A stretch of DNA of 64,000 nt. Origin: Thermodesulfovibrio aggregans. Its GTDB lineage: Bacteria > Nitrospirota > Thermodesulfovibrionia > Thermodesulfovibrionales > Thermodesulfovibrionaceae. The stretch's first letter is position 1. Each line of letters starts with the position of its first letter. Under the pieces are notes generated by a model, which worked only from the letters and a program-made list of their open reading frames with translations, searched no databases and was not told where the DNA came from. The stretch is taken from the NCBI RefSeq assembly GCF_001514535.1, contig NZ_BCNO01000001.1, positions 1-64,000 on the forward strand, written 5' to 3'. Shown here one piece after another: positions 13,135-30,266 of this stretch. The translations under genes and the position numbers were made by a program.

Positions 13135-15354
13135 ATGTTTTTACAGAAAATTGTAAATAAATTGCTGGCTCTTATTGAAAAATATCATCCCTTTAACTTC
13201 AGGTACTTTAAATTGCTCATCACTGTAGTTATGATAATTCTTCTTGGAATGGTTTTATTTCTTGGAGTGCTATCTACAAAAAAAATCACAGAAATCGTCA
13301 CAGAAGATTTTAACCAGCAACAGCTCATGCTTGCAAAGCATGCAGCAAGTCAGATAGAAAACTCAATTGAGTTACTCAAAAGAGAAATAACTCTTCTTAG
13401 TCTTTCTCCAGCAATTCAGTATTCAGAAAAGCCTGCACTTATAAATAGAATGAACATTACCTTTTCAAGTGTAAAATATGAGGGAGTTAGAGAGATTAAA
13501 TTAATTGAGGCTAAAACTCAGAAGGCATATAGAATTATTGAAGGAAAAAAATGTTTGATAGAATCAATTAATCAGGATGAAAAAAGATTTTTAAAGTGGG
13601 CATCTGAAGAAAAAAACAAAGGTCAAATATTTTTTACTGAAATAACACCCTGTCCAGATGAAGAAAATTCAAAAACTCTTATAATGAAAATGATTATTCC
13701 CGTATGGCAGATATCAATAGATGAGTCACATCCCGTTCCTACAAATAAGTTTTCAGGTGCTCTGATTTTTACTGTTGACGTTACCTATCTGGTAAGTAAG
13801 GTTACAAAAAAAATCAGGTCAGGAAAGACAGGATATGCATGGGTTATAGATAAAAGGGGTATATTCCTTTATCACGAAGAACAAAGTTTTATAGGACAGA
13901 ATGCTTTTGAAGCAAGAAAAGGTAAAAAGCCCACCATATCATTCACAAGAATTAATGAAATTCAGAGAGAAAAGATGCTTAAAGGAGAAGAAGGAACAAG
14001 CTGGTATATTTCAGGATGGCATAGAGGTATGGAAGGTGAAATAAAGAAACTTATTGCCTTTGCCCCTATAAAATTAAAAGAACCCCCAAATTCAATAATG
14101 TGGTCTATTGCAGTTGTTGCTCCCATAAGTGAAGTTGAAGGTGCAATACAAACAGTTCACACCCAGCAGATGATTCTTCAGGGAATTATAGTAATTATAA
14201 TTTTACTTGGTGGACTTTTTATAAACTTTATACTTGTTACATGGTCAAATATACTTGAAAGAGAGGTTACGAAAAAAACTGATGAATTAAAGAAATCAGA
14301 AGAAAAATATAAATCCCTAATAGAGAATGCAGAAGACATTATATTTACCGTTGACAGTGATGGTAAAATAGTTTCAATGAATAAATTCGGTCTTGAGTTC
14401 TTTAAAAAACAGGACACCCAGATATTTGGACAGCCCATCTCTGAAGTTTTTTTACCTGATGGAGTAATCCTTGCGATAAAAATAAAGCAAATCTTTAAAA
14501 CAGGGCAAAGTAGTCAGATTACGCACAGAGTATTTTCAGATGGGAGGGATTATTGGTTCAATACCAATTTAAGAGCTTTAAAGGATGAAAAAGGAAACAT
14601 CTATTCCATACTTGGAATTGCCCGTGATATAACTGATAGAAAGAAAATGGAAGAACAGAGTTACTACACTGAGAAGTTGGCTTCTTTAGGAACTCTTGCA
14701 GCAGGAGTTGCTCATGAGATAAATAATCCTCTTGCAATAATTTTAGGTTTTACAGATCTATTAATTGAAAAGACACCTCCTCAGTCTGAGCAGTACGATA
14801 TTTTAAAAACTATTGAAAAACAAGCAACAAATGCTAAAAGAATAGTTGAAAATCTTCTTAGTTTTGTAAGACACAGGGAACAGAAGGAACAGCCTGTTGA
14901 TATTAATGAATGTATAGAAAGTGTTGTTGATGTAATGAACAATACAATAACCATTAACAACATTGAGATAAAAAAAGAGTTACAAAAGAATTTACCTCAT
15001 GTAAAAGGCAATGCAGGAGAACTTCAGCAGGTATTCTTCAATATAATTAATAATGCTATTCATGTTATGAAAGGCGGTGGTGTATTAACTATATCCACAG
15101 GATATGATGGACAATGGATTGAAGTTTGCATCTCTGATACAGGTTGCGGAATTCCGAAAGAACACAGGCATAGAATTTTTGATCCTTTCTTTACAACCAA
15201 AGAAGTTGGAAAAGGCACGGGTCTTGGATTATGGGTATCTTATAACATTATTAAAAAACACAATGGTATAATTACATTTGAAACCAAAACAAAGGAAGAA
15301 TCAGAGACAACAGGAACAAAATTTATAATAAAACTACCAGCATCAAAAGAATAG
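13135..15354 (+). CDS. Membrane sensor histidine kinase, dCache-PAS-HisKA-HATPase
   Basis: A 739-residue kinase. The first transmembrane helix is at about 22-45, and a large extracytoplasmic double Cache sensor (about 46-340) contains the TGYAWVIDKRGIFLYHEE stretch typical of Cache ligand domains. The second helix is at about 345-368, a PAS domain at about 385-500, then HisKA (LAAGVAHEINNPLA), N box (INNAIHVMKGGG), G1 DTGCGIP and G2 GTGLGL. It should sense a small external ligand and phosphorylate the regulator that starts 11 bp downstream. A TATAAT box (13116-13121) lies just upstream, without a clear -35. Confidence 0.92.
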   Translation: MFLQKIVNKLLALIEKYHPFNFRYFKLLITVVMIILLGMVLFLGVLSTKKITEIVTEDFNQQQLMLAKHAASQIENSIELLKREITLLSLSPAIQYSEKPALINRMNITFSSVKYEGVREIKLIEAKTQKAYRIIEGKKCLIESINQDEKRFLKWASEEKNKGQIFFTEITPCPDEENSKTLIMKMIIPVWQISIDESHPVPTNKFSGALIFTVDVTYLVSKVTKKIRSGKTGYAWVIDKRGIFLYHEEQSFIGQNAFEARKGKKPTISFTRINEIQREKMLKGEEGTSWYISGWHRGMEGEIKKLIAFAPIKLKEPPNSIMWSIAVVAPISEVEGAIQTVHTQQMILQGIIVIIILLGGLFINFILVTWSNILEREVTKKTDELKKSEEKYKSLIENAEDIIFTVDSDGKIVSMNKFGLEFFKKQDTQIFGQPISEVFLPDGVILAIKIKQIFKTGQSSQITHRVFSDGRDYWFNTNLRALKDEKGNIYSILGIARDITDRKKMEEQSYYTEKLASLGTLAAGVAHEINNPLAIILGFTDLLIEKTPPQSEQYDILKTIEKQATNAKRIVENLLSFVRHREQKEQPVDINECIESVVDVMNNTITINNIEIKKELQKNLPHVKGNAGELQQVFFNIINNAIHVMKGGGVLTISTGYDGQWIEVCISDTGCGIPKEHRHRIFDPFFTTKEVGKGTGLGLWVSYNIIKKHNGIITFETKTKEESETTGTKFIIKLPASKE

Positions 15355-15365
15355 AAGGAGGATTT

Positions 15366-15785
15366 ATGCCAGAGAAAATTTTAATTGTTGATGATGAACC
15401 AGATATGCTTAAATTGCTTTCAATGATTTTACGGGAAAAAACACCTTATGAAGTTACAACTACAAACAATCCTGTTGAAGCAGTTGAGTTAGCAAAAAAG
15501 GGTGATTATGACCTTGTCATAACAGACCTTAAGATGCCAGGACTTGACGGACTTCAACTTCTTGAAGAGGTTAAAAAGCGTGATGAAGATGTTCCAGTTA
15601 TAATAATCACTGCCTACGGAACCATTGATGCTGCTCAGGAGGCAATAGAAAAAGGAGGATTTGACTTTATCACCAAACCCTTTAAAAAAGAGCAGATTCT
15701 ATTTACAATAGAAAAAGCTTTGAAATGGTTGAGAGTTCAGAGGGAAAACAAAATGCTCAGGGAAAAACTTAAAGGCAATTCCTGA
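15366..15785 (+). CDS. Response regulator, receiver only
   Basis: A 139-residue receiver protein. The acidic pair is in IVDDEPD, the phosphoacceptor Asp in LVITDLKMPG, Thr in IIIITAYG and Lys in DFITKPFKKE. The last 20 residues are a charged helix with no DNA-binding domain, so the output is through protein contact or phosphorelay. It lies 11 bp after the kinase with a GGAGG site, so the two form a pair. Its stop lies 3 bp from the end of the convergent gene at 15789. Confidence 0.92.
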   Translation: MPEKILIVDDEPDMLKLLSMILREKTPYEVTTTNNPVEAVELAKKGDYDLVITDLKMPGLDGLQLLEEVKKRDEDVPVIIITAYGTIDAAQEAIEKGGFDFITKPFKKEQILFTIEKALKWLRVQRENKMLREKLKGNS

Positions 15786-15788
15786 AGG

Positions 15789-18338
15789 CTAAATATCTTT
15801 TATATGCTTTTTTATAAAGTCCTCTGTATACATCTGGGCAACCATGTCATTAAATAATACCATATCAAGCTGTTTTGTATAGGCTGTAAGTTTTCCAAGA
15901 ATTTCAAGTCTTTTTTCTATTTCCGGTATTGTATATTTTGTTAAAATCGCATCTATAACATCTTCTTTTACTGAGACTCTAAAGTTCATCTTTTTTAAAA
16001 TTTCAGTTATGAGTTTTACTCTTCTTAATCTTCTATCAAGTGCTGCACCACCACCTTTGAAGAAAAATTTAATGTAGTTGTCATTTATATTTTCTCCTGT
16101 GTATGCTTCAATCATTGAAAAATGATAACCAAGACGGATGCTAAAGTTCATATAGTTTTTTGTTATTATGCAGAAACTCTTTTTAGCTGTCTCTCTCAAC
16201 TGTTCTTCAGGTATTGAAACAGTATGGGCAACCATCTCAAGAAATCCTTTAGCATCAACAGGTGGAGGACCGGGCCACTGCATACTTCTCATCCCTCTTA
16301 AGATGGCTTGAAGAGGGATTGAAATAATATTTTCTGGAGTAGCCTTTCTTACATCCTCCTTAAGTCCACCTTCTATATCAAGAACAAGTACACCAATAGG
16401 AATTTCTGCAATCAAAGGAACAGCATGGTGTTCGCTGTCATATTTATCCCACATGGTAAACATTTCATACATGACCATCTCGTGACAGAATCTTGTAATA
16501 TCATGAAATGTTTTACAGTTTTCAGGTTTGAACTCCTCTGCTAAGGGATCAACAAGATAGAGAGGAACAATAAGTTTTAAAACTTTTTGAAGGGTTTTGA
16601 ACAAGGTTGTCTCTTTAAAAGGTTCCTTAATACTTTTATATGCTTCAATGAGTTCTTCAACTTTCCCTTCATAAATTACACAGTTTGTTGCATCTACAGT
16701 TATTTCCTGTCCATGTTTTATCATTTTTGTAGCATTTTCAGTATTAATCAAAGTAGGCACATTATATTCTCTTGACAGAGATGCCATATGTCCTGTTGGG
16801 CTTCCCACATCAGTAACAATTGCAGAAGCTTTATTCATTATGACCACATACTTTGGATTTGTATGCTTTGCAACAAGAACATCTCCTTCTGAAAAGTCTT
16901 TTAATTCCTCTTCAGATTTTAAAACAAAGGCTTTTCCATATCCCACACCTTTACATGCAGTAATGCCTTTTTCAACTAAAATATTGTAGTCTTTAATTCT
17001 TGTAGGTAAAAGTACTTTACTTTCTTTCTTTTCTATAATTCTCAGGGGTCTTGCCTGAAGGATAAAGATATTGTCGTTCTCATCAACTGCCCATTCAATA
17101 TCCTGTGGACATCCGTAATACTCTTCAATTTTCAAAGCCATTTTTGACAACTCAACAATCTGTTCATCACTTAAAGAAAGCGTAGCATGGCTGTCTGGTA
17201 GAGGAATTTCTTCTATGTCTCCTTCTTCTTTACATAAAAGCATTTTGTTTTGTTTACCTGGAATTTTTTCCAGTATTGATATGTCAGGTTTTCTGCTAAC
17301 TATATAGGTTTCAGCTGTGACAGCACCATCAACAACTAATTTGCCAAGCCCCTTAACTGCATTTATTATTATGTTTTCACTTTCAGGATTATTTGGATTT
17401 TTAGAATACATAACACCACCAGCCTTTGCATTTACCATTGAAAGAACACCCGCAGCCATTACCATCTCTGTTTCAGAAAATCCCTTTGTTTTGAAATAAA
17501 ATATCGCCCTTGTATTGAAAAGACTTGCTATAACTTTCTTGTAAGTTTCTACTATTAAATCCTCGGGAACATTAAGAAAAGATGAGTACTGACCGGCAAA
17601 ACTAAAGTCAGAGTCCTCATGAATAGCACTGCTTCTTACTGAAACAGCGCATTTTTTATTGATTTTTTTACAGAGTTCTTCGTAGGATTTTTTTATGGAA
17701 TTTGCAATCTCATCAGGAACTTTGGCATTTATGATTAATTGCTGAATTTTTTCACTTGCTCTGGTTAATTCATCAATTTTTGTTATTTCAACACTATTTA
17801 AAATTTCAGAAATTTTTTCTTTAATTCCTGTTAATTCAAGAAACTTCAAAAAAGCATAGGAAGTTACTGAAAATCCTTCAGGTGTTGGTAGCTTAAGGAT
17901 ATTTTTGAGTTCTGCAAGATGGGCTATTTTGCCACCAGCAATGGTTACAGAGTCCTTATCAAGTTTGTCAAGAGAAATTGTGAAATCTGTAACAGGTATT
18001 TCTATTTTTGATGCGAGAATTTTTTCAATTTTTTCTTTTATTTCACTATAAACTTTTTCTAATGCTTTATACTTTCCTTCAGAAAGAGCATTAAGGTTTT
18101 CAATTATATCTCTAACCCCATCAGATATAGCAGTAACACTTGTTTTTATGTAATGCATATCAAAGAGATACTCACCGGAGAGTTTTTCCTCAAGGTCAGC
18201 CATTATGCTTAGAACATGATTATTTTCATTAAGGACTTTCTGAAAATAGGAGTATTTTTCTTTTAAAAGTGCTTTCAGTTTTTCTTTCTCCTCTGTTTTT
18301 TTAGTTTTAGACTTAAAAAAACCCCAAAAATCTACCAT
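15789..18338 (-). CDS. PEP-synthase-like phosphotransferase without the C-terminal TIM barrel
   Basis: An 849-residue protein. Residues 1-110 are a charged helical leader. About 125-450 is the ATP-grasp domain of pyruvate phosphate dikinase/PEP synthase (AGGKIAHLAEL; AVSVRSSAIHEDSDFSFAGQ; QDIEWAVDENDNIFILQARP). About 480-570 is the swivelling phosphohistidine domain with the catalytic His in SPTGHMASLSRE. The usual C-terminal PEP/pyruvate-binding barrel (GTNDL motif and active-site Cys) is not visible. Instead, about 280 residues of unfamiliar helical sequence follow (conserved-looking MNFSIRLGYHFS and FKGGGAALDRR). It may move a phosphate from ATP to another acceptor, as rifampin phosphotransferase does. 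The true substrate is unknown. Confidence 0.75.
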   Translation of the reverse strand: MVDFWGFFKSKTKKTEEKEKLKALLKEKYSYFQKVLNENNHVLSIMADLEEKLSGEYLFDMHYIKTSVTAISDGVRDIIENLNALSEGKYKALEKVYSEIKEKIEKILASKIEIPVTDFTISLDKLDKDSVTIAGGKIAHLAELKNILKLPTPEGFSVTSYAFLKFLELTGIKEKISEILNSVEITKIDELTRASEKIQQLIINAKVPDEIANSIKKSYEELCKKINKKCAVSVRSSAIHEDSDFSFAGQYSSFLNVPEDLIVETYKKVIASLFNTRAIFYFKTKGFSETEMVMAAGVLSMVNAKAGGVMYSKNPNNPESENIIINAVKGLGKLVVDGAVTAETYIVSRKPDISILEKIPGKQNKMLLCKEEGDIEEIPLPDSHATLSLSDEQIVELSKMALKIEEYYGCPQDIEWAVDENDNIFILQARPLRIIEKKESKVLLPTRIKDYNILVEKGITACKGVGYGKAFVLKSEEELKDFSEGDVLVAKHTNPKYVVIMNKASAIVTDVGSPTGHMASLSREYNVPTLINTENATKMIKHGQEITVDATNCVIYEGKVEELIEAYKSIKEPFKETTLFKTLQKVLKLIVPLYLVDPLAEEFKPENCKTFHDITRFCHEMVMYEMFTMWDKYDSEHHAVPLIAEIPIGVLVLDIEGGLKEDVRKATPENIISIPLQAILRGMRSMQWPGPPPVDAKGFLEMVAHTVSIPEEQLRETAKKSFCIITKNYMNFSIRLGYHFSMIEAYTGENINDNYIKFFFKGGGAALDRRLRRVKLITEILKKMNFRVSVKEDVIDAILTKYTIPEIEKRLEILGKLTAYTKQLDMVLFNDMVAQMYTEDFIKKHIKDI

Positions 18339-18382: not shown

Positions 18383-18411
18383 TTGACAAAATTTTCAACC
18401 TCAAGTATGAT
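18383..18411 (+). promoter_or_regulatory. Sigma-70 type promoter for the gntR operon
   Basis: TTGACA (18383-18388), 17-bp spacer, TATGAT (18406-18411). Predicted start near 18418, just ahead of the palindromic sites at 18427-18466 and about 60 bp before the gntR start. Confidence 0.7.
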
Positions 18412-18426
18412 ATATAAAATTACAAT

Positions 18427-18466
18427 GTTACATTATAACAATATAATAATGTTATTACAATATAAC
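18427..18466 (+). promoter_or_regulatory. Two operator-like palindromes before gntR
   Basis: GTTACATTATAAC (18427-18439) and GTTATTACAATATAAC (18451-18466) are both inverted repeats of GTTA..TAAC type, with centres about 25 bp apart. They lie between the predicted transcription start and the gntR start codon. GntR/HutC proteins commonly bind GT-N-TA-N-AC palindromes, so autorepression by the encoded regulator is likely. Confidence 0.55.
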
Positions 18467-18477
18467 AAGAGGTAAAA

Positions 18478-19218
18478 ATGGTAGAGTTAATAAGCAGGGA
18501 TGAGCATGAGAAGTTGTATTTGCAGTTATTTGATATTCTCAAGAAAAAAATTGAAAACAAAGAATGGACTGCGGGCATGCAGATTCCCACTGAGGAGCAA
18601 CTCTGTAAAATGTTTAATGTAAGCAGGGCTACTGTAAGAAATGCTGTTTTAGAACTTGTAAGGCAGGGTTATCTAACAAGGCAGCAGGGCAAGGGGACAT
18701 TTGTAAGCACCAACTATATCTCAGAAGGATTGATAATGACAACGGTATTCAAAAAACTATGGGTTGAGGATGATTCAGTTTTTAGAAAGAATGTTCTTGC
18801 AAAAACAGTAATGATGCCTGTAGGTGATTTAAGCAAAGAGCTGAATATTCCTGAAAACAGGCATGTAATATATGTAAAAATTCTATGGCTTGTTCAGGAT
18901 GAGCCCTCTATTTTACAGGAATCCTTCATTCCATTTAATATATGTCCTCATCTGCTTGAAGAAGACATTGAGACTCAGTCAATAATTGACCTTTTTGAGA
19001 AAAAATATAGCATAAAAACAACGAAGGTTAACAATTACTTTGAATTAATTTTTTTAAATAAAGAACTGGCACAGTCTTTCGGAATATCCGAAAACTCTCC
19101 TGCTATTTTGATGACTCAGAAGGTTTTCTCAGGAGATACGGTTATTCTTCTTAACAGATTTTACAAAAGAAATGACGGGAATAAATTATTTATTGCTTTT
19201 CAGAGAAAAGCATTATAA
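18478..19218 (+). CDS. GntR/HutC-family transcription regulator with UTRA domain
   Basis: A 246-residue regulator. The winged helix-turn-helix of the GntR family spans about 10-78 (IPTEEQLCKMFNVSRATVRNA, then GKGTFV). A UTRA small-molecule-binding domain spans about 95-240. It should repress or activate the operon it heads in response to a ligand that binds UTRA. It is the first gene of a tightly spaced set ending at 25536 and is preceded by a good promoter and two palindromes. The ligand is unknown; in this context an anion or carbon metabolite is plausible. Confidence 0.9.
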   Translation: MVELISRDEHEKLYLQLFDILKKKIENKEWTAGMQIPTEEQLCKMFNVSRATVRNAVLELVRQGYLTRQQGKGTFVSTNYISEGLIMTTVFKKLWVEDDSVFRKNVLAKTVMMPVGDLSKELNIPENRHVIYVKILWLVQDEPSILQESFIPFNICPHLLEEDIETQSIIDLFEKKYSIKTTKVNNYFELIFLNKELAQSFGISENSPAILMTQKVFSGDTVILLNRFYKRNDGNKLFIAFQRKAL

Positions 19219-19235
19219 ACCTTAGGAGGTGGGGT

Positions 19236-19757
19236 ATGTCAGATGGAAAATTAGTAAAGGATGTGATGCTGGGAATATTTGAGTATCCTCATATTCCCTA
19301 CTGGTTCAGTATTGAACAGGCAATCAAGGTTGTGAAGGCTTCTTTTATTCAGCCTGAAAAACACATGGATCCGCTTGCTGTGCTTGTTTTTGATGAAAAG
19401 TATAATCTTCTTGGAACTGTAACATTAAAGGATATTTTAAGAGGGCTTGAACCTACATTTCTTAAACAACCAGCAAAGGCACAGGTTTTAGAGGAAGAAA
19501 AAACAGGGCTTGCAGTTGTCTGGGATAGTCTTTTTAAAGAGGAGTCAAAAAAGCTTGCTCAGAAACCAGTTAGCGAGATAATGGTTCCTGCAAAGCATTT
19601 TGTTGACCCAGGTGACCCTGTTACAAAGGCTGCATATCTGATGATTCATTTTGACCTTCCAGTGTTGCCTGTTATTGAGGACAAGAAGAAGTTTGTTGGC
19701 ATTGTAAGAATGGTTGAAGTATTTGATGCAATTTCAGAAGAAATCATAAAAGAATAG
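19236..19757 (+). CDS. CBS-pair domain protein
   Basis: A 173-residue protein made of two CBS motifs (about 10-75 and 110-170) with no other domain. It includes GTVTLKDILRG and the second-motif segment VPAKHFVDPGDPVTKAAYLM. CBS pairs bind adenine nucleotides and often gate transporters or enzymes. It lies between gntR and a transporter gene, with AGGAGG before ATG 19236 and 9 bp to the transporter. A role as energy-sensing regulator of that transporter is inference from position. Confidence 0.85.
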   Translation: MSDGKLVKDVMLGIFEYPHIPYWFSIEQAIKVVKASFIQPEKHMDPLAVLVFDEKYNLLGTVTLKDILRGLEPTFLKQPAKAQVLEEEKTGLAVVWDSLFKEESKKLAQKPVSEIMVPAKHFVDPGDPVTKAAYLMIHFDLPVLPVIEDKKKFVGIVRMVEVFDAISEEIIKE

Positions 19758-19766
19758 GAGGAACAA

Positions 19767-21278
19767 ATGGCTGAGAAAAAAAGACCAGAAGGTTTACCTG
19801 AACCACCACCTGAAATCTATGTGGCAAAGGAAAAAAGAAAGATTAACTGGAAAAGAATATTTTTTATCTTTTTAGGACTTGCCTTTTTCTTTGGAATCTA
19901 TTTCTCACCTGCTTGGCCCGATGCTGTAGACCCGATGGGAAAACATTTTCCACTTTCAAAAGAAGCAAAAGGAGCAATTGCATTATTTATGATGGCTGGT
20001 ATATGGTGGGTTTTTGAGGTTGTTCCAATAGGTGTTACAAGTATTGCTATAGGAGTTTTTCAGGCAATATTCGCAATTCGTTCAGCAAAGGATGCTTTCC
20101 GTGATTTTATGGATCCATCTGTTATGTTTATATTCGGTTCTGTTGTTGTTGGACTTGCCTTTACAAAAACAGGACTTACAAAGAGACTTGCTTACAACAT
20201 GCTCAATGTTGTTGGCGAAAGGACAAGCATGATTGTTCTTGGTGCACTTGTTGTCACAGCAGGGCTGGCTCACCTGATGGCACATACTGCAGCAGCAGCT
20301 ACTGTATTTCCAATCCTTCTTGCCATAAATGCTCTTTATGGAGAAGGAGACAAACCAACAAATTTTGGTAAGTCTCTTTTCATAGGTATGGCTTATGCTG
20401 CAGGTGCAGGAAGTATTGTTACATTTCTCGGTGCAGCTCGTGGTCCAGCAGCAGCAGGCATGTTTAAAGAGTTCACAGGAAGAGACATAGGATTTTTTGA
20501 ACTTACAAAATACATGTTCTTAGTTGGATGGATAATGGTATTTCTTATATGGGTTTATCTCATGGTATTTCTCAAACCTGAAAAGAAAGCAATTCATGGT
20601 TTAAAGGACAAAGTAAAAACAATGATGAAAGAACTGGGACCAATGACAGGGCAGGAAAAGTTTGTAATAATCTGCGTTCTGGCAGTTATATGTGTGATGT
20701 CCCTTCAGTCCTTTGTTCCTGCTCTCAAGCCTCTTGACCGTTCTGCAATAATGCTCTGTTCAACGCTTCTTTTCTTCCTGACAGGAGTTCTTACAATAAA
20801 AGAGCTTGAAGAGATTCCATGGAATATAATCTTACTTTTCAGCGGTGCGATGAGCATAGGTTTCTGTCTGTGGAAAACAGGTGCTGCCCAGTGGCTTGCT
20901 GTAAACTGGCTTGTCATGTTCCAGCAGGCACCATGGATTGTATTTGTCCTTGCAATTGCAACCTTTGTTCTCATAATGACAAACTTCATAATGAATGTGG
21001 CTGCAATTGCTATTTCACTGCCTGTTTCCCTTGTTATTGCAAACTATCTTGGTGTAGCACCCGATGTTATACTTTATGCATCTCTTGTTACAGCAGGAAT
21101 GCCTTTTCTTCTCCTCATTGGTGCAGCACCCAATGCAATTGCCTATCAGTCAGGTCAGTTTACACCAGGTGAGTTTTTCAAGCACGGTATTCCAATGAGC
21201 ATTATTTTGATTTTAGTGCTTGCAGTATTTCTTGTTACAGTCTGGCCCCTTCTGGGGATGCCAATACTTTTAAAATAG
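19767..21278 (+). CDS. SLC13/DASS-family sodium-coupled anion transporter
   Basis: A 503-residue membrane protein of the divalent anion:sodium symporter family. A charged N-terminal tail (about 1-30) precedes about eleven to twelve helices. Family features are the early block ALFMMAGIWWVFEVVPIGVTS and the paired re-entrant loop regions, including TAAAATVFPILLAINA and FIMNVAAIAISLPVS. Members import sulfate, dicarboxylates or other anions with Na+. The next gene encodes a carbonic-anhydrase-like protein, so bicarbonate is a possible substrate. In a sulfate reducer sulfate is equally possible. Confidence 0.88.
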   Translation: MAEKKRPEGLPEPPPEIYVAKEKRKINWKRIFFIFLGLAFFFGIYFSPAWPDAVDPMGKHFPLSKEAKGAIALFMMAGIWWVFEVVPIGVTSIAIGVFQAIFAIRSAKDAFRDFMDPSVMFIFGSVVVGLAFTKTGLTKRLAYNMLNVVGERTSMIVLGALVVTAGLAHLMAHTAAAATVFPILLAINALYGEGDKPTNFGKSLFIGMAYAAGAGSIVTFLGAARGPAAAGMFKEFTGRDIGFFELTKYMFLVGWIMVFLIWVYLMVFLKPEKKAIHGLKDKVKTMMKELGPMTGQEKFVIICVLAVICVMSLQSFVPALKPLDRSAIMLCSTLLFFLTGVLTIKELEEIPWNIILLFSGAMSIGFCLWKTGAAQWLAVNWLVMFQQAPWIVFVLAIATFVLIMTNFIMNVAAIAISLPVSLVIANYLGVAPDVILYASLVTAGMPFLLLIGAAPNAIAYQSGQFTPGEFFKHGIPMSIILILVLAVFLVTVWPLLGMPILLK

Positions 21279-21287
21279 GAGTATTTT

Positions 21288-21998
21288 ATGGTTATTAAGC
21301 CAATTTTGGAAAAGATTTTTGGCAGATTTTATAAAGAGTATGACTTTATTAAAAGGTCCTATGATGTATTAAAGGGTTATGGATTTACCGATGACAATGC
21401 AATAGCATCAGTTTGTGTCTGTAGAGACGAGATTTCTCAGACCATAAGAAGTCATGTAAAAAGAATGTGGGGTGAGGCATTTAATTTTTCCAGTCTTGCC
21501 GGCTTGTTTACAGCCGGTAAGACTGGCATGAAAGCCTTTATAAGTCATGCCCCAAAGGTTGGTGGAAAAGAAAGATATGTATTTTATGCCTTTTCCCATA
21601 TTGCCATTGATGAAAATGAAAATATGGGTGTATGCAAAAGAAAGGGACTTGAAAAATCCCATGCCTGTGGTGCATTATGTCTCTTTTTAAATGAGCTTGC
21701 TAGTGGGAAAATCAATATAAGACTTGATGAAGAAGACATTGAGGAAAGTCTTCTTAAAAGAAGGTTATTAAGAGAACTCAAATACGGAGAGGTGCCAGAC
21801 CTTTTAACCCTTACAAAAATTACCCTCAAAGCAATTGTTGAAGACCTTGAAAATATAATACAAAAGGTTGTTGACCCAAAAAAAGCTGACTATGCTGTTA
21901 TCTCGGGAATTCAGATTCACGGACCAGAGGAAAACTACATTGTTCCAGATGAATCCTATGTGATTATTGATGGAGAGAGGAAAAAATTAGAGATCTAA
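21288..21998 (+). CDS. LCIB-type beta carbonic anhydrase-like protein
   Basis: A 236-residue protein that matches the pattern of the limiting-CO2-inducible protein B (LCIB) family, zinc carbonic anhydrases known from algal CO2 concentrating mechanisms and some bacteria. Recognisable blocks are DDNAIASVCVCRDEIS (35-50), SLAGLFTAGKTGMKAF (69-84), HAPKVGG (87-93), FSHIAID (102-108) and SHACGAL (124-130). Candidate zinc ligands in the family order Cys-His-Cys are Cys45 (or Cys43), His104 and Cys127, with Asp47 two residues after Cys45. It has no signal peptide, so it should act in the cytoplasm. It lies 9 bp after one transporter gene and 9 bp before another, which suggests conversion of imported inorganic carbon. 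The family call is from memory of motifs, not a search. Confidence 0.72.
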   Translation: MVIKPILEKIFGRFYKEYDFIKRSYDVLKGYGFTDDNAIASVCVCRDEISQTIRSHVKRMWGEAFNFSSLAGLFTAGKTGMKAFISHAPKVGGKERYVFYAFSHIAIDENENMGVCKRKGLEKSHACGALCLFLNELASGKINIRLDEEDIEESLLKRRLLRELKYGEVPDLLTLTKITLKAIVEDLENIIQKVVDPKKADYAVISGIQIHGPEENYIVPDESYVIIDGERKKLEI

Positions 21999-22007
21999 GG
22001 AGGACCC

Positions 22008-23744
22008 ATGAAAAGATTAATTTTTCTGTTTTTCTTCTGTCTTTTGCTTTTTAATGTTTCTGCCTTTGCCACTGAAGCAGAAAATTCAAAAGAAAATATG
22101 GATGTATTCTATATTTCAGGAACAATTCTTGATTCCCATAAAGAGCCTGTAAAAGAAGCAGAAATTACTCTTTTTGTTAATGGAAAACCACATAAGATAA
22201 TCACAGACCATAAGGAGACTGAAAAAACTGTCACATCCAGTCATGGAACATTTCAACTTAAATTTCAGCTTCCAAAAGGTGAAATTGATACAGCAAAAAT
22301 TCAGATTGAGATTGTAAAAAGTTCCTATAAGAGAACAACAGTTGATTTCAAAAAAGAGGATTTTGCAGTCAAAGGAAATGAGTTTTATATAAGCAGGGAT
22401 ATTATGATTCAGCGTCATCTGGGACCTGCTTTCTGGATTGCAACTGCTGTATTTTTGATTGCCTATGCTTTGATTTCCTTTGAGCTTCTTCACAGAACAG
22501 TTGCTGCAATGATTGGTGCAGCAACAATGCTGATACTCACATACACACTTGGAACTTTTAATCCAGAGTTTCACATTATCTCTTTTGAGAGAGCAATTGA
22601 AGCAATTGATATGAATGTTATCTTTCTTCTTATGGGAATGATGATAATTATAGGAGTTCTCAAACACACAGGCGTTTTCCAGTGGTGTGCCTATATGTCC
22701 TATAAAATTGCAAGAGGAAATGTAATGACTCTTGCTGTAATATCATGCTTTTTTATTGCATTCACCTCTGCTTTTCTTGATAATGTTACAACAATGCTTC
22801 TTTACACCCCTGTTTTGATAGAGATTGCAATTGCATTGAAAATTAATCCTCTTTCTCTTTTAATTCCAGGAATAATGGCATCAAATGTCGGTGGAACAGC
22901 AACTCTTATCGGTGATCCACCAAACATAATGATTGGCTCCTATACGGGACTTACATTTATGCAGTTTGTATATGCCCTCACACCTGTTGTAATTATAAGT
23001 ATGATTGCCCTTGTCATATACAATAAATTTTTCTACTCAAAGGAATACAAAAAGGGTAAAGTTGATGATGTTAACGCATTTATTAGCTATCTCAGAGAGG
23101 AATACAAAATCACTGATAAAACACTTCTTGGTTATGGATTGTTTATAATGGCACTTGTTGTATCCTTCTTTGCAACTCATGGAATATGGCACATGGAAGT
23201 CAGCATTCCAGCACTTTTTGGTGCAGGACTTCTTTTCACATATGCTGTTTTAACAAAGAAAGTGAAAATGCTTGAATTAATTGAAAAAGACATTGAATGG
23301 ACAACACTTTTATTCTTTATCTTCCTTTTCATTATAGTCGGTGCTGTTGAGGAAGCAGGACTTCTTGCTGTAATTGCAGACTGGGTTCATCAACTTTCAG
23401 CTGGAAATCTCACAATTGCAATATGCTTGATTTTGTGGGTTTCTGCAATAATGAGTGCCTTTGTTGACAACATTCCATTCACTGCAACAATGCTTCCAAT
23501 TGTTGCCTATCTAACAAAAGTAATTCCGGGAGCAGAGAGCAATGTTTTATGGTGGGCACTGGCACTTGGTGCCTGTCTTGGTGGAAATGGAACAATGATT
23601 GGTGCTTCTGCAAATGTTGTAACAGTGGGAATTGCAGAGGCAGCTGGATACAGGATAAGCTTTTTCGGTTTCTTTAAGTATGCCTTTTTGTATATGCTAA
23701 TAAGTGTAGCAATATGTAATGTATGGCTACTGCTTTTTTACTAA
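22008..23744 (+). CDS. ArsB/NhaD-like (IT superfamily) permease with exported N-terminal domain
   Basis: A 578-residue protein. Residues 1-22 are a signal peptide or first helix (FLFFFCLLLFNVSAFA). Residues about 32-140 are a soluble beta-rich domain (ISGTILDSHKEPVKEAEITLFVNG), like carboxypeptidase-regulatory/Ig-like folds, that should lie outside the membrane. From about 143 follow eleven or so helices of the ion transporter superfamily, with DNVTTMLLYTPV, NVGGTATLIGDPPNIMIG (the ArsB/P-protein signature), DNIPFTATMLPI and GNGTMIGASANVV. It likely exchanges a cation or carries an anion. The soluble domain fused in front is unusual. Confidence 0.83.
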   Translation: MKRLIFLFFFCLLLFNVSAFATEAENSKENMDVFYISGTILDSHKEPVKEAEITLFVNGKPHKIITDHKETEKTVTSSHGTFQLKFQLPKGEIDTAKIQIEIVKSSYKRTTVDFKKEDFAVKGNEFYISRDIMIQRHLGPAFWIATAVFLIAYALISFELLHRTVAAMIGAATMLILTYTLGTFNPEFHIISFERAIEAIDMNVIFLLMGMMIIIGVLKHTGVFQWCAYMSYKIARGNVMTLAVISCFFIAFTSAFLDNVTTMLLYTPVLIEIAIALKINPLSLLIPGIMASNVGGTATLIGDPPNIMIGSYTGLTFMQFVYALTPVVIISMIALVIYNKFFYSKEYKKGKVDDVNAFISYLREEYKITDKTLLGYGLFIMALVVSFFATHGIWHMEVSIPALFGAGLLFTYAVLTKKVKMLELIEKDIEWTTLLFFIFLFIIVGAVEEAGLLAVIADWVHQLSAGNLTIAICLILWVSAIMSAFVDNIPFTATMLPIVAYLTKVIPGAESNVLWWALALGACLGGNGTMIGASANVVTVGIAEAAGYRISFFGFFKYAFLYMLISVAICNVWLLLFY

Positions 23745-23761
23745 ATTGAGGAGGTTAAAAT

Positions 23762-24694
23762 ATGATAAAGTGTCCCTTTGAAAAGGTTTTACTGCCTGTT
23801 GATAGAAGTGAGAATTCAAAGAGAGCTATAAAATTTGCAGGAGCAGTTCTTTCAACAATTGAGGGTTCTGGTATTACAATTCTTTATGTAATGGCTGGTG
23901 GATATCTCAGTGAACACATGAAAAATATTGATTTCAGGGCAGAACTTCTAAAAGGCACAGAAGTTTTTAAAAAGATCAAGGCAAAACATATTGAAGAAAA
24001 TATTACTCCTTTTTTAAATGAATATGAGAGCATTCTTAAAAAAGCAGGCGTAAAGGGGGAGATAGCAAAGAGAATAGAAGAAGGTGACCCGGGAAATAAG
24101 ATAATTGAAATTGCAACTAAAGAGGGTTTTCAGACAGTAATGCTTTCAAGAAGAGGCATGTCAGAACTGAAGAGCTTTATTATTGGAAGTGTGTCAAATA
24201 AAGTTGTTCATGGTTTGCTTAATCAGAATATTTATCTTGTTGGGCAGAAGATTTCAGAAGAAAGCCCTATTCCCCGAATTTTAGTTCCTGTTGATGGCTC
24301 TGAATACTCAATGAAAGCTGTTGAACATGCAGTTTGCCTTGCAAAAACTGTTAAAGGAATAGAAAATATCACAGTTCTAAGGGTAATAAATGTTTCTCTT
24401 TATCTTGAAAGAGTAAGGCAGGGAATTGACCCTGAAAAAGAAGCAGAGGAAACTCTTAATAAAGCAAAAAGAAAATTTTCTGAAGAAGGCATTTCTGAAA
24501 ACTTAGTAATTACAAAAAGCAGGGTAGGATTTCCTGCTGATGAGATTTTAAAGGAAATTGAAGAAGGTGACTATAATCTTGTAATTATGGGAAGGAAGGG
24601 ACGCTCTGCCTTAAAAGACCTTGTTCTTGGTGGGGTAAGCTCTGCAGTAGTAAATAAATGTTTTGAATCAACAGTGGCAATAATTAATCAGTAG
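23762..24694 (+). CDS. Tandem universal stress protein (two Usp domains)
   Basis: A 310-residue protein made of two UspA folds (about 5-155 and 170-310). The second domain keeps the ATP-binding pattern G-x2-G-x9-G (MGRKGRSALKDLVLGG). The first has a looser version (SRRGMSELKSFIIGS). Usp domains bind ATP and often modulate membrane transporters, so the position right after two transporter genes is suggestive. GAGG precedes ATG 23762, and the following receiver gene starts 10 bp after the stop. Confidence 0.88.
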   Translation: MIKCPFEKVLLPVDRSENSKRAIKFAGAVLSTIEGSGITILYVMAGGYLSEHMKNIDFRAELLKGTEVFKKIKAKHIEENITPFLNEYESILKKAGVKGEIAKRIEEGDPGNKIIEIATKEGFQTVMLSRRGMSELKSFIIGSVSNKVVHGLLNQNIYLVGQKISEESPIPRILVPVDGSEYSMKAVEHAVCLAKTVKGIENITVLRVINVSLYLERVRQGIDPEKEAEETLNKAKRKFSEEGISENLVITKSRVGFPADEILKEIEEGDYNLVIMGRKGRSALKDLVLGGVSSAVVNKCFESTVAIINQ

Positions 24695-24704
24695 GGCAGG
24701 AAAA

Positions 24705-25103
24705 GTGGAGGATTTCAGAATTCTTCTTGTTGATGATGAAGTTGATTTTGTAGAGACACTTTCTGAGAGACTATCTCTTAGGAAATATAATGTAAGGACT
24801 GTAAATTCAGCTGCTCAGGCAATGCCTTTGCTTTATAGTTTTAAACCTCATCTTGTTATACTTGATATAAGGATGCCCGAGATGAACGGAATAGAGTTTC
24901 TTAAATTAGTAAAAAAGCTCAATCCTTCAACAGAGGTTATAATGCTCACAGCTTATGGGAACATGAATTTTGTTGAAGAGGCTATGAAAAGCGGAGCAGT
25001 TGAGTATATAATTAAACCAATTGATATAAGAGAGCTTATAATAAAGATTGAAAGAATAAGAGAAAAAATTCAACAAAAGGGGGGAATATCAGATGTCAAA
25101 TGA
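24705..25103 (+). CDS. Single-domain response regulator
   Basis: A 132-residue receiver with acidic residues in LVDDEVDFVETL, phosphoacceptor Asp in LVILDIRMPEM, Thr in IMLTAYG and Lys in YIIKPIDIRE. It has no output domain. The start is GTG 24705. It overlaps the next receiver gene by 11 bp, giving two receivers in tandem at the end of the transporter operon, with no kinase gene in that operon. It belongs to the same receiver subfamily as the proteins at 25093, 27104 and 28192 (shared RL..R pattern after DDE). Confidence 0.9.
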   Translation: MEDFRILLVDDEVDFVETLSERLSLRKYNVRTVNSAAQAMPLLYSFKPHLVILDIRMPEMNGIEFLKLVKKLNPSTEVIMLTAYGNMNFVEEAMKSGAVEYIIKPIDIRELIIKIERIREKIQQKGGISDVK

Positions 25104-25536
25104 GGAACTTAAAGCCAATGTTTTACTTGTTGATGATGAGGAACAGTTTCTGAAAGTTGTCTCACAAAGGCTTGGCATGAGAGGACTTAAAGTAGAATCT
25201 GCAACAAGTGGCGATGAAGCAATTAAAAAGGCTGATCAGAAAGATTTTGATGCCATTGTTGTTGACCTTGTAATGCCAGGTAAAAGTGGAATAGAAGTTT
25301 TAAAGGAGATTAAGCAAAAACATCCTGATTTACAGATTATTATTCTTACAGGACATGGAACAGTTGAAGCAGGAGTTGAAGCAATAAAAGAAGGAGCAAT
25401 TGACTTCTTACAGAAACCTGTTGATTTTGAAAAACTTCTTCAGAAGATTTCTGAGGCTAAAAATAAGAGATTTCTTCTGATTGAGAAAAAGCATGAAGAA
25501 CATTTAAAGGAGATTCTTCAAAGCAAGCCCTGGTAA
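25093..25536 (+). CDS. Single-domain response regulator
   Basis: A 147-residue receiver with LVDDEEQFLKVV, Asp in AIVVDLVMPGKSG, Thr in IIILTGHG and Lys in FLQKPVDFEK. A short C-terminal helix (KRFLLIEKKHEEHLKEIL) extends beyond the domain. It is very similar in style to the receiver at 27104. It is the last gene of the operon that begins at 18478, followed by a strong terminator. Signal source and target are unknown. The kinases at 27566-33121 are the nearest candidates. Confidence 0.9.
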   Translation: MSNEELKANVLLVDDEEQFLKVVSQRLGMRGLKVESATSGDEAIKKADQKDFDAIVVDLVMPGKSGIEVLKEIKQKHPDLQIIILTGHGTVEAGVEAIKEGAIDFLQKPVDFEKLLQKISEAKNKRFLLIEKKHEEHLKEILQSKPW

Positions 25537-25543
25537 ATTGAGA

Positions 25544-25571
25544 GAGGAGGCTTATTAAGCCTCCTCCTTTT
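25544..25571. terminator. Intrinsic terminator shared by convergent genes
   Basis: GAGGAGGCT (25544-25552) pairs with AGCCTCCTC (25558-25566) around a 5-base loop, followed by CTTTT. It lies between the receiver ending at 25536 and the minus-strand gene ending at 25570, and can serve both. Confidence 0.8.
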
Positions 25572-25992: not shown

Positions 25993-26937
25993 TTATTTCC
26001 ATACTCCAAGTCCTTTAAGCAGGGCTCTTACACCTGCAAAAAGAAGCATGGCGATAACAATGTATCTGACTACTTTTGGTTTTGCAACAGCGAGGATTCT
26101 CACGCCCACCACGGAACCAAGCATAATTCCCACAATACTTGGAGCAACCATCATCGGTAAGACTGCACCATTGTTAAGATAAATCCATGCTGCGGATGTG
26201 TCTGTTATAGAAAGAAGAAACTTACTTGTAGCAACTGAAACTTTAAGAGGAGCACCCATCAGGAGATTTAAAACAGGAACATTTGCCCAGCCTGCACCAA
26301 GACCAAACATGCCTGCCATTATTCCTATGGCTATGAAAAGTAAAAGAGCCTGTGGTGTTCTGTGAACCTTCCATTCAATTTCCTTACCTGTTGATATCTC
26401 ATGATAGATACCGTTTATTTTTAATGCCTGTGATAGAGCATCTGCTTTTTGCACTTCAGGGTATTCAGATTTTTTTGCAAGGAGCATAATTGCTACAATC
26501 ATAAGAATCGTTGCACCAAGTGCAATATTTACAATATGAGGAGGCAAAGCCAGTCCTATCATAGCACCTACAATTGCAGAAGCTGAAGCTATTAAAGCAA
26601 GAGGAATTGCAAGCCTTAAATCTGCAAACCCTCTTTTTAAAAGTCCAGGACCTGCTGCAAGAGCTCCTGCCAGAGCCACAAAAAGCCCGGCACCTCTTAC
26701 AAAGTCCATATTAAATGGGAAAAATCCTCCCACTATTGGAACAAATAAAACACCACCACCAACTCCTCCCAATACAGCTAAAACTCCAAGTATGAATGTT
26801 ACAATAAATAAAATCAAGGGCCATGCCCACCACGGCATTGAACTGTCTGTTGGAGTTGATGTTTCTGCATAGACCGGGTTGATAATTAAAATGGAAAATA
26901 GAAGAAGAACAACAATCCCGAGAGTTCTTATTTTCAT
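25993..26937 (-). CDS. TauE/SafE-family sulfite/organosulfonate exporter
   Basis: About 314 residues. A signal-like first helix (residues 6-24) is followed by the two repeated TauE halves: GVLAVLGGVGGGVLFVPIV (first) and AGMFGLGAGWANVPVLNLLMG (second). The domain is split by a cytoplasmic loop of about 45 residues (KKSEYPEVQKADALSQALK). The frame stays open upstream to 27285, but that part overlaps the divergent receiver gene. ATG 26937 has AGGAGG 6 bp before it and gives a normal N-terminus. Family members export sulfite, sulfoacetate or similar sulfur anions, fitting a sulfur-metabolising host. Confidence 0.87.
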   Translation of the reverse strand: MKIRTLGIVVLLLFSILIINPVYAETSTPTDSSMPWWAWPLILFIVTFILGVLAVLGGVGGGVLFVPIVGGFFPFNMDFVRGAGLFVALAGALAAGPGLLKRGFADLRLAIPLALIASASAIVGAMIGLALPPHIVNIALGATILMIVAIMLLAKKSEYPEVQKADALSQALKINGIYHEISTGKEIEWKVHRTPQALLLFIAIGIMAGMFGLGAGWANVPVLNLLMGAPLKVSVATSKFLLSITDTSAAWIYLNNGAVLPMMVAPSIVGIMLGSVVGVRILAVAKPKVVRYIVIAMLLFAGVRALLKGLGVWK

Positions 26938-27103
26938 TCTAACCTCCTGACTTTTTAAATATAAGATTATAAAATTATTACATAAATGATCTAAAAAAAT
27001 GTTATTATAATTTTTTATAATGGGATAATTTATAATTTCTTTACATTTTTCTGAATTTTTTTTAATATTTTTAAAAGACCCAAAAATTATCAGGAGGTAA
27101 AAA

Positions 27104-27562
27104 ATGGGAAGACAGATGAGAGTTTTGCTGGTAGATGACGAAGTTGAGTTTGTTAAAACTCTTGCAAAAAGACTTGAGATGAGAGAGCTTAAACCGGACA
27201 CTGTATACAGCGGTGAAGAAGCAATAAAATATGCAGAAGAACAGGAGCCAGATGTTATAGTTCTTGACCTCAGAATGCCCGGCATGGATGGAATAGAGGT
27301 TCTTAGACAGATAAGACAGGCATATCCTACAACTCAGGTTATAATTCTTACAGCTCATGGAACCGAAAAAGATCAGGAAGAAGCTCAAAAACTTGGTGCT
27401 TATGAATTTTTAAGAAAACCAGTTGATATTGAAACTCTGATGGATAAAATCAAAGGTGCCTATCAGAGAAAACTTGAACTTACCATGTCTGCTATTGCCT
27501 TTGCCGAAGAAGGAGAGTTTGACACAGCAAGAAAAATTATGGAAAACAAAGAGGAAAAATAA
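27104..27562 (+). CDS. Response regulator with C-terminal FAE motif
   Basis: A 152-residue protein. The receiver (about 5-122) has LVDDEVEFVKTL, Asp in VIVLDLRMPGMDG, Thr in IILTAHG and Lys in FLRKPVDIET. After it, residues about 127-148 read TMSAIAFAEEGEFDTARKIM. The same short motif occurs in the 55-residue protein at 33288 and at the N-terminus of the protein at 35648, so the tail is a discrete module and not just a linker. The gene is divergent from the TauE/SafE gene and convergent with the degenerate kinase (3 bp apart). AGGAGG precedes the ATG. Confidence 0.88.
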   Translation: MGRQMRVLLVDDEVEFVKTLAKRLEMRELKPDTVYSGEEAIKYAEEQEPDVIVLDLRMPGMDGIEVLRQIRQAYPTTQVIILTAHGTEKDQEEAQKLGAYEFLRKPVDIETLMDKIKGAYQRKLELTMSAIAFAEEGEFDTARKIMENKEEK

Positions 27563-27565
27563 AAG

Positions 27566-28195
27566 TTAAATCGGTATCTCAATTATAATTGTTTTCTCAT
27601 TGGCAGATATTTTTATACTGGTAACTGATGCAATCTCCTGAACTGTTGAGATTGACCAGATTTCGTTTGTAAAAGTTTCGTTGAATTCTCCAGTGTATTG
27701 TATTTTCAATTTTATTAAATTATTCTCTGATGAAGCTGTGACCGTAATATTTGTATCAGGTCTGGATTTTTTCAAAAAAGTGTCAATAGCATAGAATATT
27801 ACAAACTGCAACAAAAAGGGTGAATTATTTATATCAGGAAGATTTGAAGGTAAATCATATTTGAGAGCAACTTTTTTTCTGTTTGAGTATCTTCTTAGAA
27901 GTTCAAAAAGCTCTTCAATAATTGAGTTTAATTTAAAGCTGGTTTTTAAACTATCCATTCTGTGCGCAAATCTATTGAAATAATTAATGAAACTAACACT
28001 TCTATTTATCTGGTTTTCAATTGCCTCAATACTTTCCAGAACATAGGGCATTTCCTTTTTATCAATTGATTTTTTGCCTTTGCATATATCACTTATAAGT
28101 CCTGCAGACTCTTTTATTAATGCAAGATGGTTATTGATTTCATGAGTAAAATCAGCAATAATCTTACCTATAAAAGCAATAGGTTTTTCTATCAT
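27566..28195 (-). CDS. Degenerate histidine kinase (HisKA with non-canonical ATPase part)
   Basis: A 209-residue protein. The N-terminus is a HisKA-like helix pair with a plausible phosphoacceptor in FTHEINNHLALIKES (about His18), resembling the H box of the kinase at 28566. The following domain has the spacing of a HATPase, but the N box is lost (FVIFYAIDTF) and no DxGxG or GxGLG box is visible where they should be. It probably cannot bind ATP. It may act as a phosphotransfer or inhibitory partner. Its start overlaps the upstream receiver by 4 bp, placing it last in the kinase operon. Confidence 0.72.
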   Translation of the reverse strand: MIEKPIAFIGKIIADFTHEINNHLALIKESAGLISDICKGKKSIDKKEMPYVLESIEAIENQINRSVSFINYFNRFAHRMDSLKTSFKLNSIIEELFELLRRYSNRKKVALKYDLPSNLPDINNSPFLLQFVIFYAIDTFLKKSRPDTNITVTASSENNLIKLKIQYTGEFNETFTNEIWSISTVQEIASVTSIKISANEKTIIIEIPI

Positions 28196-28569
28196 TTTAT
28201 GTCCTCCTTTTTAATTTTTGCACTTTCAATTTTTGAGACCAAATCTTCAATATCTACAGGCTTTATCAGATAATCAAATGCTCCATGCATGAGGCTTTTA
28301 TTTATTTTTTCATTATCTCCATAGCCTGAAAGCATTATTACCTGAATAGATGAATTTATTTCTTTTATTTTTTTCAAAACTTCCAATCCATCCATATCAG
28401 GCAATCCAATATCCAAAATAACAACATCTGGTATTTCATTTAAAAATTTAACAGCATCTGAATATTTGGTTACTCCAGTTGCATCATATCCTCTCAAATT
28501 TAGTCTTTCTGTTAATGTTGATACCAGCTCAAATTCGTCATCAATAATCAATACCTTTGCTTTACTCAT
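28192..28569 (-). CDS. Single-domain response regulator
   Basis: A 125-residue receiver with LIIDDEFELVSTL, Asp in VVILDIGLPDMDG, Thr/Ser region VIMLSGYG and Lys in YLIKPVDIED. It has no output domain. The position of the usual Thr is Ser, a common conservative change. It lies between two kinase genes and overlaps both by 4 bp, a layout suited to a phosphorelay: kinase at 28566 to this receiver to the degenerate His protein at 27566. Confidence 0.9.
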   Translation of the reverse strand: MSKAKVLIIDDEFELVSTLTERLNLRGYDATGVTKYSDAVKFLNEIPDVVILDIGLPDMDGLEVLKKIKEINSSIQVIMLSGYGDNEKINKSLMHGAFDYLIKPVDIEDLVSKIESAKIKKEDIK

Positions 28570-30266
28570 TTTATTTCCTCCACTTCAGGATATACAGGTA
28601 TTTCTATTGTAAAAATAGTTCCTTTTCCCTCTTCGCTCTGTACAGTAATATCACCTCCGAGTTTTTTTATTATTCCATAGGAAATATACAGCCCCAATCC
28701 TGTACCTTTTTTCTTTGTAGTATAAAAAGGCTCAAATATATGTTTCAGTTTATCTTTTGGAATGCCATGTCCATTGTCTTTGATAGAGATTTTTATATGG
28801 TTTTTATCGCTTAATCTTGTCATAATTTCTATTGTTCCACCTATATCAACAGCATCAACAGCATTATTGATTATATTCAATAAAACTTGCTGTAGCTGTC
28901 CTTTGTCTGTTGTAATTTTGGGTAAGTCTTCCTGAAATTCATAAACTATATTAATCCCTTTGTTATGAATTTCTTTTTCTATGAATCCGACAACTTCCTG
29001 TATGGCTTCGTTAATATTAAATTCCTCTCTTGCTTTGTCAATTCTTTTTGAAAAACTTAAAAGTCTATGTGTTATGGTTTTACACCTTGTTACACTATCC
29101 TGTATAGAACTTACAAGCTGTAGGAACTTTTCTTTATTCTGCGAAGGGTCTCCATACTCAAGTAGATCTTTCATTAATCCTGCCTTTTCATTTATTATTG
29201 CAAGAGGATTGTTAATTTCATGAGCAACACCTGCTGCAAGTCTACCAATAGATGCGAGTTTATCAGCATGCTCTGCATTTGCGATTGCGATTTCCCTTTC
29301 ATGATCAGCTTTTCGAACCCTGTTTACTAAATTATTTATTGAAGTTGTTATAACAAAGAAAATTATAGCAATACTCAGAAGACTTATCATTGTTACTTCT
29401 TTTGTAAAGAAAGTAGGAATTTTAGCATAGGGTTTGGAACATATTGTTGTTAAAAGTATCCATGGAGTTTCTCTAATGGAAGTATAGGCAATGTAAGCCT
29501 GTTTTTTATTCAGTTCAACATCATAAATTTTTATCCTGTCTGATTCTCTTTCTATGATAATATTAAGTTTTAGTGGTTCAAGAGCATTTCCGAAATACTT
29601 GGAGTTAGTTTGAAGTATAAGTTGTTTATTTATAAGAAATACATCATCCTGTGAGCCGATTTCAAGATTTGAAATAAGTTTCTGTAGAATATCCATATTT
29701 ATGGAAACTCTCAAAAGCCAAAAATCACCACCGGAAGGCATTTCTTTTTTTATTATTATTGAAAAATGCGGAATTTTTCTGTAACCAAGAAAAACATCTG
29801 TAACATAATCACTTTTCAGCGTCATCTCTTTAAACCACTCTGTTTGTGAATAGTCTTTTCCTTTAAGTTGATAAGGTCCTACATAAAGAGTCTGTATACC
29901 ATTACTGTTTATGATTCCCATATCAATAATTCCCTCAAATTCTCTTTTAAAATTTGAAAATAATTGGAAAAATTTCTTCTCATCTGAGAAATACTCCTGA
30001 GGATATGAACTTACGATAAATTTAAGAGCAGATTTCCGTTCAGAAATAAAAAATTCAAGAGAATGCCTTGTTTCCTCCATCTGCCACCTGAGATTGTTTT
30101 TGAATTCGTCATGAACTATTTCGTAAATCCAAAAATAAGTAATGGTTACTACAATCATAAGAGGAATTATGGCAAAGAATGTGTTAAAAAGAATTAGTCT
30201 GAATTTAAGATAAAAGTATCTATCTTCGGTGAGCTTTGTAATAAATTGTTTGATAAAATTAAACAT
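28566..30266 (-). CDS. Membrane sensor histidine kinase with Cache-type sensor
   Basis: A 566-residue kinase with a first helix (about 26-50), a Cache-like extracytoplasmic domain (about 51-275, containing GKDYSQTEWFKEM and TSIRETPWILLTT) and a second helix (about 285-310). HisKA follows (RLAAGVAHEINNPLAI), then N box NIINNAVDAVDIGG, G1 DNGHGIP and G2 GTGLGLYISYG. All catalytic motifs are present. It is the third gene of the minus-strand operon 33121-27566. Its probable partners are the receiver just downstream and possibly the NtrC-type regulator upstream. Confidence 0.92.
   Translation of the reverse strand: MFNFIKQFITKLTEDRYFYLKFRLILFNTFFAIIPLMIVVTITYFWIYEIVHDEFKNNLRWQMEETRHSLEFFISERKSALKFIVSSYPQEYFSDEKKFFQLFSNFKREFEGIIDMGIINSNGIQTLYVGPYQLKGKDYSQTEWFKEMTLKSDYVTDVFLGYRKIPHFSIIIKKEMPSGGDFWLLRVSINMDILQKLISNLEIGSQDDVFLINKQLILQTNSKYFGNALEPLKLNIIIERESDRIKIYDVELNKKQAYIAYTSIRETPWILLTTICSKPYAKIPTFFTKEVTMISLLSIAIIFFVITTSINNLVNRVRKADHEREIAIANAEHADKLASIGRLAAGVAHEINNPLAIINEKAGLMKDLLEYGDPSQNKEKFLQLVSSIQDSVTRCKTITHRLLSFSKRIDKAREEFNINEAIQEVVGFIEKEIHNKGINIVYEFQEDLPKITTDKGQLQQVLLNIINNAVDAVDIGGTIEIMTRLSDKNHIKISIKDNGHGIPKDKLKHIFEPFYTTKKKGTGLGLYISYGIIKKLGGDITVQSEEGKGTIFTIEIPVYPEVEEIK

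Follow-up and report, generated by a model that had tools for sequence, protein, structure and literature searches.

In Chlamydomonas, bestrophins are required in the CO2-concentrating mechanism and implicated in HCO3- uptake, and the same algal mechanism also employs LCIB (PMC6708349). The SLC13 transporter VcINDY has a pair of SNT motifs for binding Na+ and carboxylate; in LaINDY, a proposed exchanger that keeps its SNT motifs, the cation sites are occupied by Arg and His (PMC7553777).

The locus described here brings the LCIB and SLC13 families together in a Nitrospirota sulfate reducer, Thermodesulfovibrio aggregans, which carries dsrA and the CODH/ACS subunit CdhC and has a genome of 2.0 Mb in 3 contigs. 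The window, i.e., the whole stretch of 64,000 nucleotides that we analyzed, forms the beginning of a contig of 1.28 Mb. To our knowledge, no SLC13 protein is known to carry bicarbonate. The initial annotation of the locus as a candidate for inorganic-carbon uptake noted no described bacterial system with such a gene set; similarly, our searches of open-licence papers turned up no account of SLC13 paired with LCIB.

Layout and control region of the operon

Based on the ORF list and Pfam, eight plus-strand ORFs span 18478-25536, with intergenic gaps of 17, 9, 9, 9, 17, and 10 bp followed by an 11-bp overlap; the eight same-strand genes with gaps of ≤17 bp that had been annotated were all found at the same place and strand. 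In order, they encode a GntR/HutC-type regulator with a UTRA domain (18478-19218), a CBS-domain protein (19236-19757), an SLC13/DASS-fold anion transporter with altered SNT motifs (19767-21278; Pfam Na_sulph_symp), a 236-aa LCIB-type (beta-CA-like) carbonic anhydrase (21288-21998; Pfam LCIB_C_CA), a CitMHS/IT-superfamily carrier with an N-terminal extension (22008-23744), a tandem universal stress protein (Usp) with two Usp stretches (23762-24694), and two single-domain response-regulator receivers (24705-25103 and 25093-25536). Pfam agreed with the annotated GntR, SLC13, LCIB, Usp, and receiver assignments; however, only one CBS domain of the annotated pair scored. The GntR and CBS genes are syntenic in relatives. 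GntR-CBS-SLC13-LCIB forms the conserved core, and the Usp and receiver genes lie at its edge.

The predicted promoter, TTGACA-17-TATGAT (18383-18411, +), matches the consensus at 11 of 12 positions. Our promoter scan was near chance overall (35 promoter-like sites vs. 27 ± 4.5 by chance), so this call rests on conservation: of the 26 regions upstream of GntR orthologues, 15 contain CTTGACAA. Between the promoter and the GntR start lie two palindromes (18426-18467, unstranded), TGTTA-N5-TAACA at 18426 and TGTTAT-N6-ATAACA at 18450; their core, CATTATAA, is present in 19 of the same 26 regions. In the control for upstream 8-mers, which used 100 shuffles, the commonest 8-mer reached at most 11. 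The palindromes are probably the operator for GntR. Downstream, the terminator scan placed a hairpin with a 10-bp stem and a short T tract at 25544-25566 (+), in a scan that returned 5 terminators vs. 6.5 by chance. Both flanking signals of the initial annotation were recovered.

The operon itself stood, but the conserved system extends past the limits first drawn around it. A PEP-synthase/PPDK-like gene (15789-18338, −; Pfam) is, in most relatives, oriented divergently from the operon, and a dCache-PAS histidine kinase with a receiver (13135-15785, +) is a further conserved upstream neighbor based on domain search and synteny. A second dCache histidine kinase and receiver, identified in the same way, lie at 28192-30266 (−); in relatives (L041, L049, and L050), their homologues lie inside the operon. 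The PEP-synthase/PPDK-like protein has PPDK_N and PEP-utilizers domains, and beyond residue ~570 it had no Pfam match. Elsewhere in the window, 33491-35494 (−) encodes a 667-aa receiver-Lon fusion, in which an AAA+Lon_C protease follows a response-regulator receiver, and TauE/SafE-type carriers are encoded near the operon at 25993-27285 (−) and 36404-37489 (+). The first of these ORFs probably starts later, as its 5' part overlaps a receiver gene at 27104.

The LCIB protein and its genomic partners

The 236-aa product scored 184.7 bits against PF18599 (LCIB_C_CA; cut-off 25), as expected from its initial naming as LCIB, and Chlamydomonas LCIC and LCIB, which have the nearest experimental structures, match it at E ~1e-44. 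In its AlphaFold model (pLDDT 94), the best PDB fold match was LCIB 5k5w (TM 0.82), and classical beta-CAs ranked after the LCIB family. Sequence and model together make its predicted membership in the LCIB family secure. Relatives of the protein were absent from the plasmid and phage collections. In an alignment, C45, D47, H104, and C127 were conserved in 43 of 43 relatives and R46 in 41 of 43. The proposed Cys45-His104-Cys127 site is accordingly invariant, and we infer that these residues are zinc ligands and that D47 and R46 form the Asp/Arg dyad. Retention of the ligands and the catalytic Asp, and nearly always of the Arg, argues against a catalytically silent LCIB that acts as a CO2/HCO3- sensor or regulator. 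We consider such a role very improbable, although the locus is rich in GntR, CBS, Usp, receiver, and kinase genes and, as far as we know, Chlamydomonas LCIB/LCIC are inactive in vitro.

Among 296 sampled Nitrospirota genomes, 44 had an LCIB-family match; within the host class, the good LCIB loci numbered 27, from 26 genomes. An SLC13 gene of the same clade as that in the window (clade I; hereafter SLC13-I) lies directly upstream on the same strand in 22 of these 27 loci, a count that takes in some fragments, broken copies, and contig ends, and the distance between the two genes is usually less than ~100 bp. Counted from the transporter (26 SLC13-I copies, ≥64% identity), LCIB follows in 21 cases; the other five copies form SLC13-CitMHS units with a similar layout and no adjacent LCIB. 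In the phylum of Thermodesulfobacterium, LCIB was present in 8 of 297 sampled genomes, five of which have the SLC13-LCIB pair. The arrangement goes beyond chance, as many genera share it and it also occurs in a second phylum, and the linkage to SLC13 anticipated in the initial annotation was borne out.

The window LCIB aligned to those of the Thermodesulfobacterium loci with 86% identity, and with lower identity to some members of its own genus (67% for L067); because it is closer to the former, this points to movement of the SLC13-LCIB unit by horizontal transfer. Across loci with LCIB below 65% identity, mean identity was 78% for SLC13, 55% for LCIB, 60% for CBS, and 51% for GntR. That SLC13 stays similar as LCIB diverges is consistent with one fixed substrate.

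LCIB also occurs without SLC13, either in an Mrp context or alone. It lies directly after a bestrophin gene (Bestrophin_2) in one Nitrospirota locus (L040, gap −4) and one Planctomycetota locus (L102, gap 13), and in two Nitrospira-like genomes the gene directly before it encodes CaCA. This upstream neighbor, a 355-aa protein with 10 TM segments, was considered as SbtA, which was ruled out, since it is a CaCA exchanger; likewise, a 603-aa LCIB neighbor considered as SulP is an Mrp/NuoL-type subunit. Three genus members had no LCIB match, so the gene is not essential in the genus. No beta-class CA was found in the host genome or in any of 11 genus genomes. Beta-CA was present in all three SLC13-I genomes without LCIB vs. 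6 of 21 with LCIB (hypergeometric p ~0.04, uncorrected for phylogeny), which at most suggests a trade-off between the two enzymes.

Several loci show rearranged or degraded copies. L083 (G282) has tandem GntR-CBS-SLC13-CitMHS units, with a short SLC13 remnant beside LCIB elsewhere on the contig. Broken copies occur at L034, L031, and L068, comprising a split CitMHS in Thermodesulfobacterium, an SLC13 with in-frame stops in G067, and the split LCIB of L068, which lies near SulP, CitMHS, and CBS genes. A second, distant SLC13 clade (L088-L091; 26-30% identity, mostly with FHDAT and SNSAA-type motifs) occurs in GntR-CBS-SLC13-Mrp units with no adjacent LCIB.

Substrate and coupling of the two carriers

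SLC13-I scored 207.9 bits against the DASS family profile TIGR00785 (cut-off 198.6), and its fold matched NaS1 (TM 0.82) and NaCT (TM 0.80). In place of the two SNT motifs, it has AHT (172-174) and MNV (409-411), nearly invariant across clade I, and Arg225 occupies a position in the first-half loop at which VcINDY and NaDC3 have proline. Based on profile and model, it is a predicted DASS-fold protein in which neither SNT motif is retained. Because these motifs are replaced, canonical Na+-dicarboxylate symport appears unlikely; AHT, MNV, and Arg225 together leave Na+ coupling unsupported by sequence. Uptake of C4-dicarboxylates or other organic anions, with LCIB serving a downstream carboxylation, would be in keeping with the dicarboxylate and citrate carriers among solved SLC13 structures. 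However, both carboxylate-binding motifs are lost throughout clade I and the operon has no conserved catabolic gene, and we regard this reading as the least credible of those considered here.

Because the host reduces sulfate, the main rival substrate is sulfate, which SLC13-I would import, possibly swapping it for bicarbonate made by LCIB from respiratory CO2. SulP was not found in the host genome, and the operon SLC13 is its one DASS protein (remaining DASS matches are pieces of the CitMHS ORF). The SLC13 family includes sulfate carriers, NaS1 is among the best fold matches, and an exchanger might be compatible with the changes at the cation sites. Nearly all members of the host class have dsrA, which favors a sulfate carrier; for the same reason, we dropped dsrA distribution as a discriminator. 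Against sulfate, dsrA matches occur without either DASS or SulP in three members of the genus (G047, G072, and G075), and published data for T. yellowstonii list 0 SulP, 0 DASS, 2 CysP, and 8 CysZ (PMC5840216). The host, like every genome tested, carries a PiT/CysP-family gene. Moreover, dsrA is present in most genomes sampled from the class, and SLC13-I in only about one-fifth of them all; a version limited to sulfate leaves LCIB unexplained. Sulfate is therefore disfavored as the substrate; a sulfate/bicarbonate exchanger is possible, but we judge the sulfate reading as a whole improbable.

The initial annotation placed LCIB between two membrane carriers and took this to suggest bicarbonate import or CO2 trapping. 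The pairing of the anhydrase with membrane ion carriers was supported, whereas the second one proved not to be a conserved carrier of carbon. The 22008-23744 product matched CitMHS at 272 bits and fell below the curated cut-offs for MamN (161.3 vs. 500) and NhaD (29.8 vs. 80), so that it is not assigned to either family. In relatives, LCIB is followed by a 456-aa or 426-aa CitMHS, by an Mrp cluster (MNHE, Proton_antipo_M), or by KefB/CaCA. Since unrelated Na+/H+ antiporters replace it, the window CitMHS carrier looks like a Na+/H+ antiporter instead of a second carbon carrier. An Mrp/NuoL-type subunit lies directly before LCIB in three genus members. At L072 (7361-9908), L069, and L071, where LCIB comes straight after such a membrane subunit, the arrangement is reminiscent of DabB and its CA-like partner and, by analogy, could form an energized CO2-hydrating complex.

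These replacements also bear on cytoplasmic pH/Na+ homeostasis, in which LCIB would hydrate metabolic CO2, yielding HCO3- and H+, SLC13 would release or exchange the anion, and the antiporter would move H+ against Na+, with carbon secondary. Animal arrangements of bicarbonate transporters, NHE, and CA provide a parallel. The partner carriers are interchangeable and of the Na+/H+ antiporter type, one genome (G072) has GntR-CBS-Mrp-LCIB-Usp with SLC13 absent, and the presence of Usp and CBS points to sensing of stress or energy state. Yet it is to SLC13, and not to the antiporter, that LCIB is linked most tightly and with the greatest conservation, and in G337 and G373 the pair occurs without any antiporter alongside. 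We consider homeostasis unlikely as the main role, while giving it more weight than sulfate uptake.

Proposed function and comparison with known systems

We give an even chance to the proposal that the operon supplies dissolved inorganic carbon. SLC13-I would import bicarbonate, possibly carbonate, and cytoplasmic LCIB would turn bicarbonate and a proton into CO2 for CO2-using enzymes, e.g., those of the Wood-Ljungdahl pathway (CODH/ACS is present in every class genome tested). The CitMHS-type carrier, or the Mrp complex in relatives, would exchange Na+ for H+, thereby removing any co-imported Na+ and replacing the proton spent by LCIB, and the GntR regulator would act on the promoter through the palindromes. 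Bicarbonate/carbonate as the transported ion is suggested by linkage to LCIB; we also infer the direction of flow, coupling to Na+, binding by GntR, and what the CBS, Usp, and receiver proteins do, through which adenylates or phosphorylation might gate the system.

Because many related genomes share the pairing of transporter and anhydrase, this is probably a bicarbonate supply system as yet undescribed in bacteria. The more specific claim, to which we give somewhat less than even credence, is that an SLC13 clade with a rebuilt ion site (AHT, MNV, and Arg) transports bicarbonate/carbonate and, together with LCIB, forms a supply for Wood-Ljungdahl organisms that is not RuBisCO-based. Several observations weigh against inorganic-carbon supply: a bestrophin or Mrp partner would fit pH regulation too, the replaced SNT motifs leave Na+ coupling without sequence support, 5 of 26 SLC13-I copies and some LCIB genes occur apart from each other, and LCIB is missing from three genus members. 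If correct, the proposal would extend inorganic-carbon uptake in bacteria to a further transporter family, provide LCIB with a defined partner in bacteria, which would help to explain how the algal protein works, and suggest active management of CO2/HCO3- by anaerobic bacteria with the acetyl-CoA pathway. With its two genes, the SLC13-LCIB unit is small enough for direct testing.

Among known systems, SbtA, BicA, and DAB/MpsAB resemble the operon in its proposed role of bacterial inorganic-carbon import, and DAB also has a CA-like protein; however, the operon uses the SLC13 and LCIB families, and the host lacks SulP, the family of BicA. MamN/NhaD/ArsB-type carriers resemble the 22008-23744 product in its CitMHS and MamN matches, but the product has an N-terminal extension as well as subthreshold scores. 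SLC13-I shares its predicted fold and an above-cut-off family score with VcINDY, NaCT, NaDC3, NaS1, and LaINDY, and differs from them in the first SNT motif (AHT), the second (MNV), and the loop proline (Arg); in our comparison of positions, the surrogate cations of LaINDY (PMC7553777) lie at sites other than those changed in SLC13-I. Chlamydomonas LCIB/LCIC with the BST bestrophins has a homologous enzyme with the same zinc ligands that works with an anion carrier, whereas here the enzyme is encoded within an operon, its host is an anaerobic sulfate reducer that has CODH/ACS, SLC13 takes the place of a bestrophin as the carrier, and no pyrenoid is implied.
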